Positions 12,689-39,728 of a stretch of DNA of 64,000 nucleotides are shown in pieces (the stretch's first letter is position 1; every line of letters begins with the position of its first letter). Made by a program: the position numbers and the translations under genes. Location: NCBI RefSeq assembly GCF_000384655.1, contig NZ_ARQI01000128.1, forward strand, positions 1 through 64,000, read 5' to 3'. Under the pieces are notes generated by a model. That model was given only the letters and a program-made list of their open reading frames with translations, ran no database searches and was not told the origin of the DNA. The stretch is from Brachyspira innocens ATCC 29796. GTDB lineage: Bacteria; Spirochaetota; Brachyspiria; Brachyspirales; Brachyspiraceae.

Positions 12689-13777
12689 TTATATATTAGA
12701 TACTATAATATCACCCATTTCAGAACATCTCACCTGCTTATACAAATAAGTCATCATATTATGTTTAGGCATAATATCAGCTGTTCTGTATCCTTCATCT
12801 ATAGCCTTGTAAACAGCATCTTCTATGGCTTCTGCTTCATTAAACATACCAAAAGAATATCTAAACATCATAGCAAGAGAAAGTATAGTACCTATAGGAT
12901 TGGCCAAATCTTTTCCAGCAATGTCTGGAGCAGAACCATGTATAGGCTCATACATACCAATAGAACCATCAGAAAGACTAGCTGAAGGTGCCATTCCTAT
13001 AGAACCGCTTATAATACTTGCCTCATCAGAAAGTATATCTCCAAACATATTTTCTGTAACTATAACACCAAATTGTGAAGGATTAGCAGTTATCTGCATA
13101 GCTGCATTATCAACATACATGTCATTATACTGAACATCGCTGTATTCTTTAGAAAGAGTGTTCATAATTTCACGCCATAATTTTGAAGTATGAAGAACAT
13201 TAGCTTTATCTACAGAAGTTAAAGGTTTTTTAAGATTTCTAGCCAAATCAAAAGCTACTTTTCCTATTCTTAATATCTCATCTTCTTTATAAACCATAAG
13301 GTCAGTTGCCTGTCTTACACCATTAACTACTTCAAATTTATGCTCACCAAAATATACTCCTCCAGTAAGCTCTCTTACAATAACAAAATCAATAACATCT
13401 TTGCATATACTTTCTTTAAGAGGAGAAGCATATTCTAAAGATTTTAATATTTTTATAGGTCTTATATTAGCATAAAGCTTCATTTCTTTACGTAGTTTTA
13501 ATAAACCTCTTTCTGGTCTGTTTTCTGGGGCTACTTTATCCCATTTAGGACCTCCCACAGAACCTAAAAGTACAGAATCGGACTTAATACATTTTTCCAA
13601 ATTTTCATCAGTAAGAGGAACTCCGTATTTATCAATAGAGCATCCTCCCATATCAACATATTCTAAATTAAACTTATGCGAATATTTTTCAGCTATTTTA
13701 TTTAATACATCAATAGCCTTGTCTACTATCTCTGGACCTACTCCGTCTCCTTTAATAACAACAATATTTTTTTCCAT
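12689..13777 (-). CDS. leuB: 3-isopropylmalate dehydrogenase
   Basis: LeuB oxidises and decarboxylates 3-isopropylmalate with NAD, the third step of leucine synthesis. GDGVGPEI (10-17) and LLGSVGGPKWD begin the family pattern. The substrate loop RPERGLLKLRKEMKLYANIRP carries the conserved arginines, and YEPIHGSAPDIAGK with ANPIGTILSLAMM forms the cofactor site. At 362 residues it is normal length. It is the last gene of leuA-C-D-B and starts 6 bp after leuD, so translation is probably coupled. Confidence 0.96.
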   Translation of the reverse strand: MEKNIVVIKGDGVGPEIVDKAIDVLNKIAEKYSHKFNLEYVDMGGCSIDKYGVPLTDENLEKCIKSDSVLLGSVGGPKWDKVAPENRPERGLLKLRKEMKLYANIRPIKILKSLEYASPLKESICKDVIDFVIVRELTGGVYFGEHKFEVVNGVRQATDLMVYKEDEILRIGKVAFDLARNLKKPLTSVDKANVLHTSKLWREIMNTLSKEYSDVQYNDMYVDNAAMQITANPSQFGVIVTENMFGDILSDEASIISGSIGMAPSASLSDGSIGMYEPIHGSAPDIAGKDLANPIGTILSLAMMFRYSFGMFNEAEAIEDAVYKAIDEGYRTADIMPKHNMMTYLYKQVRCSEMGDIIVSNI

Positions 13778-13783
13778 AAATAA

Positions 13784-14272
13784 TTACCCCTTATTCTTTA
13801 TAGAGTTTAAAAGCCCATTGGAGTTAATTATATTTTTAATAAACTCTGGGAAAGGCTCTGCTTTATAGCTTTCATTTTTAGTAATATTTGTTATAACGCC
13901 GCTGTCAAAATCAACTTCAACTTCATCTCCATTGTCTATTTTTTTGCTTGCCTCTTCGCATTCAAGTATTGCAAGCCCTATATTAATAGAGTTTCTGTAA
14001 AATATTCTAGCAAAAGAAGAAGCTATAACGCATGATATACCAGATTCTTTAATGGCAATAGGAGCATGTTCTCTTGATGAACCGCATCCGAAATTCTCTC
14101 CTCCTACCATTATATCGCCTTTCTTTACCTTATTTACAAAATCTTTATCAATATCTTCCATACAATGAGCTGCTAACTCTTTATGATTTGCAGTATTTAA
14201 ATATCTTGCTGGAATAATAACATCAGTATCAACATTATTTCCATATTTATGAACGAAACCTCTAGCTTTCAT
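13784..14272 (-). CDS. leuD: 3-isopropylmalate dehydratase small subunit
   Basis: LeuD is the swivelling-domain partner of LeuC in isomerising 2- to 3-isopropylmalate. [13 protein letters not shown] and [15 protein letters not shown] (about 57-71) are diagnostic. The 162-residue length is that of the short, archaeal/clostridial-type subunit, matching the LeuC form beside it. It starts 44 bp after leuC and ends 6 bp before leuB. Confidence 0.95.
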
Positions 14273-14316: not shown

Positions 14317-15564
14317 TTATTTAGGCTCTGTTATATATCCAGTCAAAGCACTGTATGCAGCAGTGGCAGGACTAGCCAAATATACTTTAGAAGTTTTATC
14401 TCCCATTCTTCCTACAAAGTTTCTATTAGTTGTAGTAACAGCAACCTCATCATGGGCAAGTATTCCCATATATCCTCCCAAACAAGGTCCGCAAGTAGGA
14501 GTAGATACTGCACAGCCTGCATCAATAAATATATCCATATAGCCTAGTTTGATGCATTCTTTATAAACCTTCTGAGTAGCTGGTATAATTATGCATCTTA
14601 CATTTTTAGCTATTTTCTTTCCTTTTAAAATATTGGCAGCAGTAGCCATATCAGACAATCTGCCATTAGTACAAGAACCAATAACCACTTGATCAACTTT
14701 TATATCTTTTAATTCTTTAGCATCTTTTGTATTTTCTGGTAAATGAGGACAAGCAACTGTAGGCTCTATTGAAGCTAAATCAATATCATATTCTTTCTCA
14801 TATACCGCATCATCATCAGCTTTAAAAATAGTATAATCTCTTTTTACTATATCTTTTAAATATTCTATAGTTTGATTATCAACCTCAAATATTCCGTTTT
14901 TAGCACCTGCCTCAATAGCCATATTAGCGATACAAGCCCTGTCGTCCATAGTAAGAGCTGAAACACCTTCTCCCCTAAACTCCATAGATTTATATAAAGC
15001 TCCGTCAACACCTATCATACCTATAATATGAAGTATAACATCTTTACCAGATACATTTGGTTTTAATTTGCCTTTAAGATTAAATTTAATAGCAGAAGGC
15101 ACCTTAAACCAAACCTGACCTGTAGCCATAGCAGCGGCCATATCAGTACTTCCAACACCTGTAGAAAAAGCCCCGAAAGCTCCATAAGTACAAGTATGAG
15201 AATCAGCACCTATTATAACTTCACCAGGAGCAACTAATCCTTTTTCTGGTAAAAGTGCATGCTCAACTCCCATATCTCCTACATCATAATAGTTGGTAAT
15301 ATCATATTTATTTGCAAAATCTCTGCATTGTTTGCATTGTTCTGCAGCTTTAATATCTTTATTAGGAGCAAAGTGATCCATAACCAAAGCTATTTTTTCT
15401 TTATCAAAAACCTTATCAAAACCATATTTTTCAAATTCATTAATAGCAACAGGACTTGTTATATCATTTCCTAAAACCAAATCAGTTTTAACCATAATAA
15501 GTTCGCCTGCCTCAACCTTATCAACACCTGCATGTGCTGCTAAAATTTTCTGAGTAATAGTCAT
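14317..15564 (-). CDS. leuC: 3-isopropylmalate dehydratase large subunit
   Basis: LeuC carries the [4Fe-4S] cluster of isopropylmalate isomerase. [20 protein letters not shown] and [11 protein letters not shown] are signatures, and [10 protein letters not shown] supplies the paired cluster cysteines, with the third in GSCTNG. At 415 residues it belongs to the shorter HacA/archaeal-type group, not the enterobacterial form of about 470. The ATG at 15564 follows AAGGAT, only about 20 nt after a strong terminator hairpin that separates it from leuA. Confidence 0.95.
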
Positions 15565-15632: not shown

Positions 15633-17132
15633 TTATAATTTATTCAAGCCGTTAATATAAGCCATCAAACTGGCCTCAATAATATCTGTACTAACTGCCC
15701 TTCCTATAACTGTTTTATCATCAGAAGACAATCTGACAATAACCTCTCCCAAAGCATCTTCACCTTCTGTAATAGCCTGTATAGAATAATTAACTAATTT
15801 AGCTCTGTTTGAAGTAAGAGAATCAATAGCCCCAAATGCCGCATCTATAGGACCATTTCCTTTACCTATAGCCTCAACAATATTTTCTTTATTGTCAAGT
15901 ATAGATACTGAAGCAAAAGATGATATAGAATCACTATCATTAACCATAAAGCTTTTTAAAGTATACATAGGATTTTCTACAGAAGCATTATTTCCTATTA
16001 GCAAAGCCTCTATATCAGTATCAGTAACTATTTTTTTCTTATCTGCTAAGTTCTTAAACTTAATAAAAGCTTCTTCTAAAGCCCTATCATCAATATCATA
16101 ACCTAAAGATTCTATTCTGTCTTTAAAAGCATGCTTTCCAGAATGTTTACCCAATACCATTTTATTTTGAGGTATTCCTATATCTTCAACATTCATAATC
16201 TCATAAGTAGAACGTTCTTTTAATACTCCATGCTGATGAATGCCAGCCTCATGAGCAAATGCATTAGCACCAACTATAGCTTTATTAGGAGCAACTACCA
16301 TACCTGATATAGTAGATAATAATTTTGAAATTTTATAAATACGTTTTGTATTAACATCAGTATAGGCATCATAAAAATCTTTTCTAGTTTTAATACCCAT
16401 TACAACTTCTTCCAAACTAGTATTACCCGCACGCTCTCCTATACCGTTAATAGTACATTCTACCTGAGTAGCACCAGCCAAAACAGCCGATAAAGAATTA
16501 GCAGTAGAAAGTCCCAAATCGTCATGACAATGCACAGATATATCAACATTATCTATACCCTTAACATTAGCTTTTAAATATTTTATAAGCTCAGCCATTT
16601 CTAAAGGAGTAGTATATCCTACAGTATCTGGAACATTGATTGTAGTAGCTCCGTTTTCTATAGCTGCAGAATATGCCTGAACTAAAAAGTCTTTATCACT
16701 TCTTGAAGCATCTTCAGCAGAAAACTCTATAAACTCAAATTTTGTTTTAGCATAAGAAACAGATTCTTTTATTGTTTCCAATACCTGCTCTCTGGTCATC
16801 TCTAATTTATGCTTTAAATGTATATCGCTTGTAGCTATAAAAGTATGAAGCATTGGGTGTTTAGCTTCAGCAAGTGCTTCATAGGCTCTGTCTATATCTT
16901 TTTTATTGCATCTTGCCAAACTAACTAGCTTAGCATTTTCTACAACCTTGCTTACTTCTCTTATAGCATTAAAGTCATCATCAGAACATATAGCAAAACC
17001 AGCTTCTATAACATCAACGCCCAATTTATCAAGCTCGGCTGCCATTTCTAACTTCTCTGCCAAATTCATAGTACAACCAGGAGATTGTTCTCCATCTCTT
17101 AAAGTAGTATCAAAAATCTTAATCTTTCTCAT
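15633..17132 (-). CDS. leuA: 2-isopropylmalate synthase
   Basis: LeuA condenses acetyl-CoA and 2-oxoisovalerate, the committed step to leucine. It opens with the TIM-barrel signature IFDTTLRDGEQSPG (5-18) and has the metal site HCHDDLGLSTANSL. GINGIGERAGNTSLEEVVM and AHEAGIHQHGVLK are family motifs. The last ~115 residues form the regulatory leucine-binding domain (allosteric feedback inferred from the family). At 499 residues it is full length. It is the first gene of the leu cluster; an outward promoter in repeat element B (17207-17235) faces it. Confidence 0.96.
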   Translation of the reverse strand: MRKIKIFDTTLRDGEQSPGCTMNLAEKLEMAAELDKLGVDVIEAGFAICSDDDFNAIREVSKVVENAKLVSLARCNKKDIDRAYEALAEAKHPMLHTFIATSDIHLKHKLEMTREQVLETIKESVSYAKTKFEFIEFSAEDASRSDKDFLVQAYSAAIENGATTINVPDTVGYTTPLEMAELIKYLKANVKGIDNVDISVHCHDDLGLSTANSLSAVLAGATQVECTINGIGERAGNTSLEEVVMGIKTRKDFYDAYTDVNTKRIYKISKLLSTISGMVVAPNKAIVGANAFAHEAGIHQHGVLKERSTYEIMNVEDIGIPQNKMVLGKHSGKHAFKDRIESLGYDIDDRALEEAFIKFKNLADKKKIVTDTDIEALLIGNNASVENPMYTLKSFMVNDSDSISSFASVSILDNKENIVEAIGKGNGPIDAAFGAIDSLTSNRAKLVNYSIQAITEGEDALGEVIVRLSSDDKTVIGRAVSTDIIEASLMAYINGLNKL

Positions 17133-17235: not shown

Positions 17236-17513
17236 AAAATATTTTTTAAATTCAAAATATTTGCGGGGCTTTGCCCCCGCTCTGCGTGCCTTCGGCAACC
17301 CCAGTTCTTTTGCGACCCTAAGAAGTCCTGTTGGTTGGCACATGCACATCCCGCCTGCGGCGAGAACCAAAAAGACTGCATTTTAGCACAAATTCAATAA
17401 TTTATCCTACATATAAAACATAATTAGTGCTTATTAGTATTATTTTTATATTTGCACTTTTTGCGGCGGGAAAAAGTTGAATAAAAAATTACAAACTTAA
17501 AAATGTTTAGCAT
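17207..17513. repeat. Intergenic repeat element B between leuA and ilvC
   Basis: Left end TACTTAAACAAC... at 17211-17235; a diverged inverted copy lies at about 17487-17513. The GC-rich core (17262-17385) contains a GCGGGG/CCCCGC hairpin and the element-A blocks CAGTTCTTTTGC (17302-17313), CACATGC 37 bp later (17339) and AAAGACTGCATTTT (17371-17384). CAGTTCTTTTG can pair with CAAAAAGACTG (17368-17378). The remaining 70-80 bp on each side are AT-rich. It fills nearly the whole 387-bp gap, and I see no ORF. Confidence 0.7.
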
Positions 17514-17519
17514 ATATTA

Positions 17520-19078
<1,559 letters not shown>

Positions 19079-19097: not shown

Positions 19098-20771
19098 TTA
19101 ATCTACTATTATATCATCTATAGTTCCACCAGCTGGTATCATAGGCAAAACTCTTAAATCTTTATCTATAATGCATTCTATCCATACTGGACATTTACAT
19201 TTTAATGCCTCTTCAAAAGCCTCTTCAAATTCTTTTATAGTTTCACATCTAAAGCCTTTGGCACCGAAACCTTCAGCTACTTTTATATAATCCATTTTTT
19301 TATTTATATCAGTGCTTGAATATCTTTTATCATAAAATATAGTCTGCCATTGTCTAACCATACCTAATGTACTGTTATTAAGTATAATAGATATAACTGG
19401 AAGATCATATTCAACAGCAGTAGCTACTTCATTTAAGTTCATATAAAAAGAACCGTCTCCTGTTATATGTATTACTCTTCTATCTGGTTTGGCAAACTGA
19501 CATCCTAAAGCAGCACCATATCCAAATCCCATAGTACCCAAACCTCCACTTGTGATAAAACTTCTAGGCTTGGTATGCCTTATATACTGAACAGCCCACA
19601 TCTGATGCTGTCCTACATCTGTAACATATATAGCTTCATCTTTAGTTTTATTTCCTATTATGTCCATAACTTTGCTAGGATAAATTCCGTCTTTATTGGT
19701 ATTTCTATCAGAATCCTCTTTCATCTCTTTGGCTCTTAAATCTGATAAATATTTTACCCATTCATCATCATCTACTCTTTTTACCAATTTATTAAATCTA
19801 TCTAGTACATCATTCAAATCACCAATTATACTATAATCAACATTAACGTTTTTATTAATCTCGCTTTTGTCTATGTCTATATGAACCTTTTTAGCAGCTC
19901 CTCCAAATTTAGAAGTATTTAAAGCAACTCTGTCACTGAACCTTGTACCAACAGCAAGGATTAAATCAGCTTCATTCATTACTTTATTTGCTGTAGCAGA
20001 GCCATGCATTCCTAAAAGTCCAATATTTAATTTTTCATTATATCCTAATACCCCAGCCCCCATTAATGTATGTACTGAAGGTATATTGGAATTAATCATA
20101 AACTCTCTTAATTTATCGCTTGAGTCTTTTGCCCCCCCACCGAAATATATAATAGGTCTTTTAGATTCATTTATTAATTTAGCAACTAACTCTATTGTTT
20201 TTTCATCTTCTGCACTTATTTCAACTGGTTTTGGAGAAAATTTTTCTCTTTTAGTAAACTCTGTTTCTGCTAATGTAAAATTTTTAGGTATATCTATCAA
20301 AACAGGTCCTTTTCTTCCATTATTGGCTATTGCGAATGCTTTTCTTATGGTGTTTGCAAGTTCATTAATATCTCTAACAACAAAATTATGTTTAGTTATA
20401 GGCATTGTTATACCAGCAATAAAAACTTCCTGAAATGAATCTTTGCCTATTAAAGTTTCTGGAACATTGGCAGTTATTGCAATCAAAGGCACACTATCCA
20501 TATAAGCAGTAGCTAAAGGCGTTACTAAATTAGTTGCACCTGGTCCGCTTGTAGCAATTACAACACCAGTCTTTCCGCTTGCTCTAGCATAACCGTCAGC
20601 AGCATGGCATGCTCCAACCTCATCTACAGGCATTATATGTTTTATTTTATCTCTATATTTAGAGATAGCATCGTATATAAATAATGCAGCACCGCCCGGA
20701 TATCCGAATACAGTGTCTACTCCTTCTTCTATTAAAACTTCCATTATTATTTCTGAACCATTCAACTTCAT
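19098..20771 (-). CDS. ilvB: Acetolactate synthase large subunit
   Basis: A thiamine-diphosphate enzyme making acetolactate and acetohydroxybutyrate. TATSGPGATNLVTPLATA-type and FQEVFIAG blocks plus the cofactor motif GDGSFYMNLNE...NNSTLGMVRQWQ are clear. The catalytic Glu is present, but its context is VDEVGACHAADGYARA where acetolactate synthases normally have (R/K)HEQGA; His and Gln are replaced. At 557 residues it is full length. The ATG at 20771 follows AAGGAG. It lies 126 bp downstream of an Ile/Leu/Val-rich leader peptide that probably controls it. Confidence 0.95.
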   Translation of the reverse strand: MKLNGSEIIMEVLIEEGVDTVFGYPGGAALFIYDAISKYRDKIKHIMPVDEVGACHAADGYARASGKTGVVIATSGPGATNLVTPLATAYMDSVPLIAITANVPETLIGKDSFQEVFIAGITMPITKHNFVVRDINELANTIRKAFAIANNGRKGPVLIDIPKNFTLAETEFTKREKFSPKPVEISAEDEKTIELVAKLINESKRPIIYFGGGAKDSSDKLREFMINSNIPSVHTLMGAGVLGYNEKLNIGLLGMHGSATANKVMNEADLILAVGTRFSDRVALNTSKFGGAAKKVHIDIDKSEINKNVNVDYSIIGDLNDVLDRFNKLVKRVDDDEWVKYLSDLRAKEMKEDSDRNTNKDGIYPSKVMDIIGNKTKDEAIYVTDVGQHQMWAVQYIRHTKPRSFITSGGLGTMGFGYGAALGCQFAKPDRRVIHITGDGSFYMNLNEVATAVEYDLPVISIILNNSTLGMVRQWQTIFYDKRYSSTDINKKMDYIKVAEGFGAKGFRCETIKEFEEAFEEALKCKCPVWIECIIDKDLRVLPMIPAGGTIDDIIVD

Positions 20772-20897
20772 AACAAACTCCTTATATTATTTTATAGCCT
20801 TTTTAAATTTTATTGTTATATTTCTATTTATAGAAACTTTATTGTAAAAATTATATTAACTTAAATGTATTATATATTTTTTAGATTATAGATTATA
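20772..20897 (-). other. Spacer between the ilv leader peptide and ilvB
   Basis: This 126-nt AT-rich mRNA segment contains a small TTTCTA/TAGAAA hairpin (20821-20836) and the ilvB ribosome site AAGGAG (20778-20783). No classical terminator with a U-run is visible. The ribosome site can pair over 5 bp with the CUCCU of the leader's Leu codons (within 20926-20932), which suggests control of translation instead of termination. This is only an inference. Confidence 0.45.
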
Positions 20898-21047
20898 TTA
20901 TAACAGGATATTGACAAGAATAGAGAGGAGAATATTGAGAATAATACTTTTTATAGATTTATTAGAATTATTAAAATTAACTTCAGATGAGATTTGTTTA
21001 ATAAAAACAGAATCATAGGTCATACTGTAAGCAGGTGACATTTTCAT
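20898..21047 (-). CDS. ilvBNC leader peptide, 49 residues, Ile/Leu/Val-rich end
   Basis: ATG at 21047 follows a strong AAGGAG site; the stop is TAA at 20898. It opens MKMSPAYSMTYDSV and ends IILNILLSILVNILL, where 12 of 15 residues are Ile, Leu or Val, the very amino acids made by the ilvBNC and leu genes downstream. Several of those codons (CTC three times, CTG, GTC, ATC) end in C or G, unlike the TTA/ATA/GTA habit of neighbouring genes, as expected of a stalling sensor. I infer a leader peptide of the ilv/leu attenuation type. The response mechanism (transcriptional or translational) is not settled by the sequence. Confidence 0.8.
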   Translation of the reverse strand: MKMSPAYSMTYDSVFIKQISSEVNFNNSNKSIKSIILNILLSILVNILL

Positions 21048-21076
21048 CTTCTTTCTCCTTTCGATATTTGATACAT

Positions 21077-21104
21077 ATTATAATATTTTTGAGTAATATT
21101 GCAA
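21077..21104 (-). promoter_or_regulatory. Promoter of the ilv leader-ilvBNC operon
   Basis: Minus strand TTGCAA (21099-21104), a 16-bp spacer and TATAAT (21077-21082). Transcription should start near 21070, about 23 nt before the leader-peptide ATG. Confidence 0.7.
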
Positions 21105-39344: not shown

Positions 39345-39728
39345 TTAGCTTATAACAGCTATTATTTCAACTTCTACTAATGCATCTTTTGGAAGAGATT
39401 TTATTGCAACTGTACTTCTTGCAGGAGGATTTTCTGGGAAATATGCAGCATATACTTCATTGAATGCAGCAAAATTAGCCATATCAGTTAAAAAGCAAGT
39501 AGTTTTTATAATATTAGCCATAGTTAAATTTTCTGATTCTAAAAGACCTTTTATATTTTCCATAACTCTTTCAGTTTGTTTTTTTATATCATTTTCAGCC
39601 ATATTTCCGCTTACTGGATCCAAAGGTATTTGACCTGAAGCAAAAATGAAATTTCCGCTTTTCACAGCTTGTGAATAAGGTCCTATAGCCTGCGGAGCTT
39701 TGTGTGTTTTAATGATTTTTTTATCCAT
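39345..39728 (-). CDS. ridA: RidA family reactive-enamine deaminase
   Basis: A 127-residue YjgF/YER057c/UK114 protein. RidA hydrolyses reactive imine/enamine products of threonine dehydratase and so protects PLP enzymes. Signatures are APQAIGPYSQAVKSGNFIFASGQIPLDP (11-38), CFLTDMANFAAFNEVYAAYF and PPARSTVAIKSLPKDALVEVE, with the substrate Arg in PARST. It is monocistronic with its own terminator. Confidence 0.94.
   Translation of the reverse strand: MDKKIIKTHKAPQAIGPYSQAVKSGNFIFASGQIPLDPVSGNMAENDIKKQTERVMENIKGLLESENLTMANIIKTTCFLTDMANFAAFNEVYAAYFPENPPARSTVAIKSLPKDALVEVEIIAVIS

Follow-up and report, generated by a model that had tools for sequence, protein, structure and literature searches.

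A conserved Ile/Leu-rich leader peptide before ilvBNC in Brachyspira, a probable amino-acid sensor without the usual transcription terminator

Leader peptides in the control of branched-chain amino acid genes

Most known cases of amino-acid attenuation come from proteobacteria, Actinobacteria, and Firmicutes. The enterobacterial ilv/leu attenuators ilvL, ivbL, and leuL combine leader peptides containing codons for branched-chain amino acids (BCAA) with terminator hairpins, and leader peptides of the tnaC type act in a Rho-dependent manner, with the free ligand serving as signal. A terminator hairpin is also employed by the attenuator of ilvBNC in Corynebacterium glutamicum (PMC11857589). In the LEU element of Actinobacteria, a run of Leu codons pairs with the Shine-Dalgarno (SD) sequence of leuA in a pseudoknot-based structure (Seliverstov et al., 2005; PMC1262725). 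BCAA-rich upstream ORFs (uORFs) preceding ilvB have been described from Corynebacterium, several phyla, and Leptospira by Narunsky et al. (2023; PMC10272879), who call for experiments. According to the same study, the ilvB-II motif controls ilvBNC, and the Leptospira ilvB motif, which has a structural model of its own, contains a BCAA- and Thr-rich uORF in which three or more Val codons follow one another (PMC10272879).

The ilvB gene of Brachyspira innocens ATCC 29796, contained in the window analyzed here (the whole stretch of 64,000 nucleotides, with a GC content of 28%, from a genome of 3.28 Mb), is preceded by a short Ile/Leu-rich ORF which belongs to the BCAA leader-peptide attenuators in the broad sense, but lacks the intrinsic terminator of the classical ones. 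It resembles ilvL, ivbL, leuL, and the C. glutamicum attenuator in the position of a BCAA-codon leader directly before a BCAA operon and in the stalling logic it would follow, and differs from them by the missing terminator hairpin. By analogy, the LEU element appears to be the closest mechanistic precedent, which the Brachyspira leader resembles without being identical to it and without any implication of shared ancestry: codons of the leader ORF pair, here by prediction, with the SD sequence of a downstream BCAA gene, and no terminator is needed. The LEU element is located directly before leuA in Actinobacteria, whereas the Brachyspira leader is located at ilvB and is additionally predicted to pair with its own SD sequence. 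The closest taxonomic precedent is the Leptospira ilvB motif, which shares with ilvB-OMG, ilvB-II, and the Brachyspira leader a BCAA-codon-rich uORF before ilvB and likewise stems from a spirochaete, but the Brachyspira leader is rich in Ile and Leu and has no Val run. The literature searched held no report of a leader peptide in Brachyspira, and Leptospira was the only lead from a spirochaete.

The leader ORF, its conservation, and its rare codons

An earlier note on this DNA had described a 49-codon ORF with a strong ribosome site, located behind a TTGCAA-16-TATAAT promoter and ending in IILNILLSILVNILL upstream of ilvB. All of these elements are present at the following positions of the window:

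21099 to 21104, minus strand: -35 element TTGCAA of the leader/ilv promoter; TTGCAA or TTGTAA is kept in 23 of 24 orthologous loci
21077 to 21082, minus strand: -10 element TATAAT, 16 nt from the -35 element; a spacer of 16 or 17 nt is kept in 23 of 24 loci
21055 to 21060, minus strand: leader SD sequence AAGGAG (SD1), followed by AAA; predicted to pair with the regulatory codons (AGGAGAA with UUCUCCU)
20898 to 21047, minus strand: leader peptide ORF, ATG start, 49 codons plus TAA, read from the sequence; an equivalent ORF is found at 24 of 24 Brachyspira ilvB loci
20901 to 20945, minus strand: regulatory codon block IILNILLSILVNILL, rich in CTC, ATT, GTC, ATC, and CTG, C-rich and G-poor, defined by codon counts

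The ORF translates to MKMSPAYSMTYDSVFIKQISSEVNFNNSNKSIKSIILNILLSILVNILL, with 7 nt between SD1 and the ATG and 126 nt between the leader stop and ilvB, and its final 15 codons are ATT ATT CTC AAT ATT CTC CTC TCT ATT CTT GTC AAT ATC CTG TTA. A consensus promoter by itself is not significant here (7 seen, 7.0 expected from shuffles); the arrangement TTG(C/T)AA-16/17-TATAAT is located 21-46 nt upstream of the leader start codon in 23 of the 24 orthologous loci. The overall fold stability of the leader is the same as that of shuffled sequences (z -0.11), and Rfam covariance models, including the T-box, gave no match at gathering score anywhere in the window. As judged from NCBIfam naming, the leader heads a same-strand cluster ilvB-ilvN-ilvC-leuA-leuC-leuD-leuB:

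19098 to 20771, minus strand: ilvB, acetolactate synthase large subunit (TIGR00118, 665 bits, above cut-off)
18551 to 19078, minus strand: ilvN, acetolactate synthase small subunit (TIGR00119)
17520 to 18515, minus strand: ilvC, ketol-acid reductoisomerase (TIGR00465)
15633 to 17132, minus strand: leuA, 2-isopropylmalate synthase (TIGR00973)
14320 to 15564, minus strand: leuC, 3-isopropylmalate dehydratase large subunit (TIGR02083)
13787 to 14272, minus strand: leuD, 3-isopropylmalate dehydratase small subunit (TIGR02084)
12692 to 13777, minus strand: leuB, 3-isopropylmalate dehydrogenase (TIGR00169)

The search for ilvB covered the window's own genome, 25 other genomes of the genus, and three of the same family, and yielded 24 Brachyspira loci with upstream sequence (all such loci of the genus, window included). 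Each of them carries, directly before the operon, an SD-preceded ORF of 24-52 codons with BCAA codons, which ends 92-134 nt upstream of ilvB. In the alignment of the main clade (17 genomes), every gap within the leader ORF is a multiple of three. This and the retention of the rare codons indicate an ORF under selection; frame decay in relatives, which would have spoken against the proposal, was looked for in the 24 loci and not seen. The N-terminal part varies strongly (19 synonymous and 285 non-synonymous codon differences to the reference within the main clade), and its larger share is absent in the B. pilosicoli clade, where the leader comprises only 24 codons (MKSFF...SIILLSLIIIL). Despite this divergence, the Ile/Leu-rich end persists, as in ILNILLSILVNILL, FLNILLSILLIIL, INILILLSIILNILL, and similar sequences. 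The comparison of related genomes suggested earlier therefore bears out a retained Ile/Leu-rich end with rare codons in the 24 loci, but the description as "Ile/Leu/Val-rich" has to be narrowed to its Ile/Leu part, with several species having no Val in the block at all. One genome of the same genus (G019, 2.0 Mb, completeness 99%) is the only one without an ilvB match and possibly represents a BCAA auxotroph.

The codons of the block deviate strongly from those typical of the genome, as taken from 49 long ORFs of the window. There, CTC and CTG make up only 1.6% and 1.9% of the Leu codons, GTC 1.3% of the Val codons, and ATC 4.1% of the Ile codons, for which ATA is prevalent (65%). Across the terminal 16 codons of each of the 24 orthologous leaders, by contrast, Leu is encoded by CTC in 51 of 125 cases (41%) and by CTG in 24 of 125, all 14 Val codons are GTC, and ATA accounts for just five of 129 Ile codons. 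The N-terminal part of the leader does not exhibit this Leu/Val bias, and the rare C/G-ending codons noticed before are thus a genuine feature of the end block. One gene each was found for tRNA-Leu with the anticodons CAA, UAG, UAA, and GAG and for tRNA-Ile with GAU, and the sole tRNA-Val found has the anticodon UAC. By the usual decoding rules, these genes imply that the block is read by tRNA-Leu(GAG) and tRNA-Ile(GAU), and not by the tRNAs which serve the commonest codons.

A non-regulatory reading, in which the ORF encodes a small protein (of the membrane) with a function of its own or is open by chance, would agree with the hydrophobic C-terminus and with the missing NCBIfam match of the peptide. 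Yet its N-terminal half is almost free to vary and largely dispensed with in the B. pilosicoli clade, the ORF always adjoins ilvB, and the extreme codon bias is confined to the Ile/Leu block, which makes this reading very improbable. We are highly confident that the Ile/Leu-rich rare-codon ORF of Brachyspira represents a regulatory leader peptide, and it is probably an amino-acid sensor which switches on the BCAA genes in starvation.

A CTG codon shortly before the stop is invariant in all 24 leaders, even though CTG is so rare among Leu codons in general; it is located at 20904-20906 (minus strand) in the window, as second-last codon, and is the last codon in other species. Pairing with SD sites (see below) does not explain it. 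It would fit a peptide-mediated ribosome arrest, for which a conserved C-terminus would be favored, or a rare-codon stall which alters mRNA stability or the coupling of transcription and translation, with any SD pairing being incidental. However, the C-termini of the peptides differ among species (SILVNILL, SILLIIL, SLIIIL, SIILL), an uncommon trait among sequence-specific arrest peptides, and codon identity is conserved at least as well as the residues. Accordingly, we regard such a stall or arrest as improbable.

A protein search for a second copy of the leader in the genome returned only its own locus and a chance match (E 0.08). The codon pattern for ILLS(I/L) occurs at five sites of the genome; the other four were not leaders in the contexts viewed, one of them being the complement of the SD sequence of a small gene at 39345-39728. 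A 76% match to C121 was dismissed as AT-rich noise.

Terminator search in Brachyspira and its sister genus

The earlier note had assigned the control of ilvBNC to ilv/leu attenuation, which it described as better known in enterobacteria. The regulatory leader itself is borne out by its presence at 24 of 24 loci and by its rare codons, but the classical mechanism is not: scanning from the leader to position +30 of ilvB revealed an intrinsic terminator at none of the 24 Brachyspira loci, and under relaxed criteria matches appeared only within the N-terminal coding part of the 24 leaders. The same criteria do detect a terminator with a 13-bp hairpin and a U-run in a locus of the sister genus (L034), which served as positive control. 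A mutually exclusive antiterminator hairpin is likewise missing, since there is no terminator to compete with, and the consensus of the main clade folds only into codon-SD pairing and small hairpins. The spacer contains the following structure:

20820 to 20837, minus strand: spacer hairpin of 7 bp, GUUUCUA-UAAA-UAGAAAU, conserved and predicted by RNAalifold, not a terminator

This hairpin (GUUUCUA-NNNN-UAGAAAU) has a variable loop, a single G-C pair, and no U-run. The inverted repeat is kept in the 17-genome main clade and was not seen in the B. pilosicoli clade; it could form an RNA hairpin or a DNA operator. Transcription attenuation of the E. coli ilv/leu kind, with an intrinsic terminator and an antiterminator, would account for a correctly placed leader peptide carrying regulatory codons, and the sister genus seems to practice it, but with no terminator-like site in Brachyspira it is hardly credible for this genus.

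In L034, an Ile-run ORF (MQSLLVIIIIAILVAFYSVTQREA) is followed by the canonical intrinsic terminator and then by ilvB (positions 1330-1468), a layout from which this leader is likely to be a classical attenuator. The Brachyspiraceae therefore appear to hold both forms of the leader, one with a terminator and one without. Another locus, L033 (genome G028), contains an ORF rich in Ile and Leu (MLFKIKKNVSLKKEIINIILDIILKIILQ...), which has an SD sequence AAGGAG of its own and is located about 120 nt upstream of, and overlapping, the ilvB start at 1501, suggesting a possible translational coupling, as judged from the gene layout; a gene with an ilvD-like end is located immediately upstream. In L035 (genome G027), ilvD directly precedes ilvB. 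Among 79 other, distant genomes, eight (from Clostridia, Oligosphaera, and others) show Ile/Leu/Val-rich, SD-preceded short ORFs before ilvB, a count without a chance control; these candidate leaders are L110, L116, L127, L129, L145, L151, L154, and L157.

Pairing of the regulatory codons with Shine-Dalgarno sites

Apart from their rarity, the codons of the block are characterized by their complementarity to two SD sequences, SD1 of the leader and SD2 of ilvB. The additional features are:

20926 to 20932, minus strand: UUCUCCU within the block (codons ATT CTC CTC), predicted anti-SD sequence; paired in 17 of 17 sequences in the RNAalifold consensus helix
20778 to 20783, minus strand: SD sequence AAGGAG of ilvB (SD2), the proposed regulated site, from the sequence and the accessibility model

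UUCUCCU, as contained in ATT CTC CTN, is complementary to the leader SD (AGGAGAA) and, via CUCCU, to the ilvB SD (AGGAG). When given the 17 main-clade sequences, RNAalifold predicted the CUCCU:AGGAG(ilvB) helix unprompted in all of them, in one case with a G-U pair. In the short-leader clade of five genomes (L022, L024, L026-L028), the complementarity to the ilvB SD is UCUCCUA:UAGGAGA, and RNAalifold predicts that the block and SD1 form an 11-bp helix containing a single bulge. Complementarity of the regulatory codons to a downstream SD, as expected of a translational attenuator, is thus present in both clades, and 21 of the 24 loci retain the complementary bases at identical codons; L029, L031, and L032 have lost CUCC and retain a weaker match, which contains G-U pairs or is shorter. 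The helices are conserved, but show no compensatory base changes and are therefore unproven. The energy of the duplex with SD1 is better than that of synonymous recodings with genome-typical codons at 18 of 24 loci (p<=0.03), but the complementarity does not exceed that of within-block shuffles of the observed synonymous codons (p about 0.1-0.8), so the pairing may be a by-product of the choice of rare C-ending codons. For the ilvB SD, the duplex of the main clade consists of a 5-bp core only (p 0.01-0.20 against recoding).

From this complementarity we infer a mechanism in which ribosome stalling, pairing in vivo, and translation as the regulated step would act together. The leader would be translated from its own SD, and its last 15 or so codons would offer rare Ile/Leu(/Val) codons (CTC and CTG for Leu, GTC for Val, ATT/ATC instead of ATA for Ile), whose bases UUCUCCU would double as anti-SD sequence. 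With charged tRNAs available, ribosomes would move past the block and new ones would load at the leader SD, leaving the block free to pair with the ilvB SD AAGGAG and ilvB poorly translated. If Leu or Ile became scarce, a ribosome stalled on the block would mask the anti-SD sequence, and the ilvB SD would open.

Modeling of the ilvB SD agrees with this scheme. With the leader SD covered by an initiating ribosome, the ilvB SD is predicted to be unpaired in 9% and paired to the codon block in 87% (means of the 24 loci); when the regulatory codons are occupied by a ribosome, the unpaired fraction in the same model is 46%. In a stricter masking test, an initiating ribosome was present in both states, and a second one was positioned either at the stop codon or on the regulatory codons. 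Shifting the latter from the stop to the regulatory codons made a fully open ilvB SD more probable at 22 of 24 loci, with a geometric mean of 80-fold, and recoding the block with typical codons as masking control lowered the gain to 1.6-fold. In the model, it is therefore these codons that cause the predicted effect, which does not by itself demonstrate selection for it. The genome of the window is one of the two exceptions (0.74-fold, stop versus stall) and shows a gain in accessibility only against RNA without a terminating ribosome, likely because, as judged from its predicted structure, a second UCCU near its stop may also pair with the ilvB SD. We favor translational attenuation, since 21 of 24 loci preserve the complementary bases at identical codons and it is on these bases that the predicted effect depends, and we give even chances to the leader acting on the translation of ilvB.

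The observed composition of the block would also suit a Rho-dependent attenuator, in which the C-rich, G-poor segment serves as rut site: a ribosome stalled for want of Leu or Ile would hide it, and once the block is cleared, Rho would stop transcription in the spacer of about 126 nt. A gene for Rho is encoded (TIGR00767, 644 bits), and the segment over the stall codons has the expected character: in the window genome, the final 60 nt of the leader contain 12 YC steps at 20% C and 5% G, a YC count unmatched at so little G by any 60-mer of coding sequence from the window genes sampled. The lack of an intrinsic terminator is consistent with this reading, which explains the C-ending codons no less well than SD pairing. 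On the other hand, a rut site in the block would be masked by the pairing predicted with SD1, neither the spacer hairpin nor the conservation of CUCC is needed, and L031 and L032 show a weak C bias (13-15% C). Moreover, the composition of the block is not independent evidence for Rho, because its richness in C and U follows from Ile/Leu codons ending in C or T. The resulting system would be similar to tnaC in that the ribosome position over a C-rich segment, the putative rut site, could control the access of Rho, but would differ in sensing tRNA charging rather than a free ligand. Although we consider Rho-dependent attenuation, the main rival, rather unlikely, it could act together with sequestration of the ilvB SD.

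Translational attenuation could also take the form of a two-way switch, in which one stretch of rare Ile/Leu codons is both a sensor of tRNA charging and the shared anti-SD sequence of two start sites, shutting the leader SD when it is unused and the ilvB SD during normal translation of the leader, while a stalled ribosome frees both. We put this forward tentatively, as somewhat less probable than its opposite. If true, a terminator-free amino-acid attenuator would be fixed across a spirochaete genus, with an intrinsic terminator retained before ilvB in a sister genus. If the codons do double as anti-SD sequence, the codon choice of a leader peptide would be explained by RNA pairing together with tRNA supply. 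As the peptide and its rare codons are kept throughout the genus without the classical terminator, the way in which an AT-rich genome attenuates with no GC-rich terminator becomes directly testable by synonymously altering a few codons of a single short ORF.

Inspection by eye of the region upstream of ilvD revealed no obvious leader. The gap between ilvC and leuA amounts to about 390 nt, and co-transcription of leuA with ilvBNC is uncertain. This gap contains an element at 17240-17400 (minus strand) with 47% GC within the 28% GC window, which includes a GCGGGGGCAAAGCCCCGC hairpin resembling a terminator. The element recurs elsewhere in the genome in about 40 partial copies with 70-100% identity, identifying it as a dispersed repeat which may separate leuA from ilvBNC.
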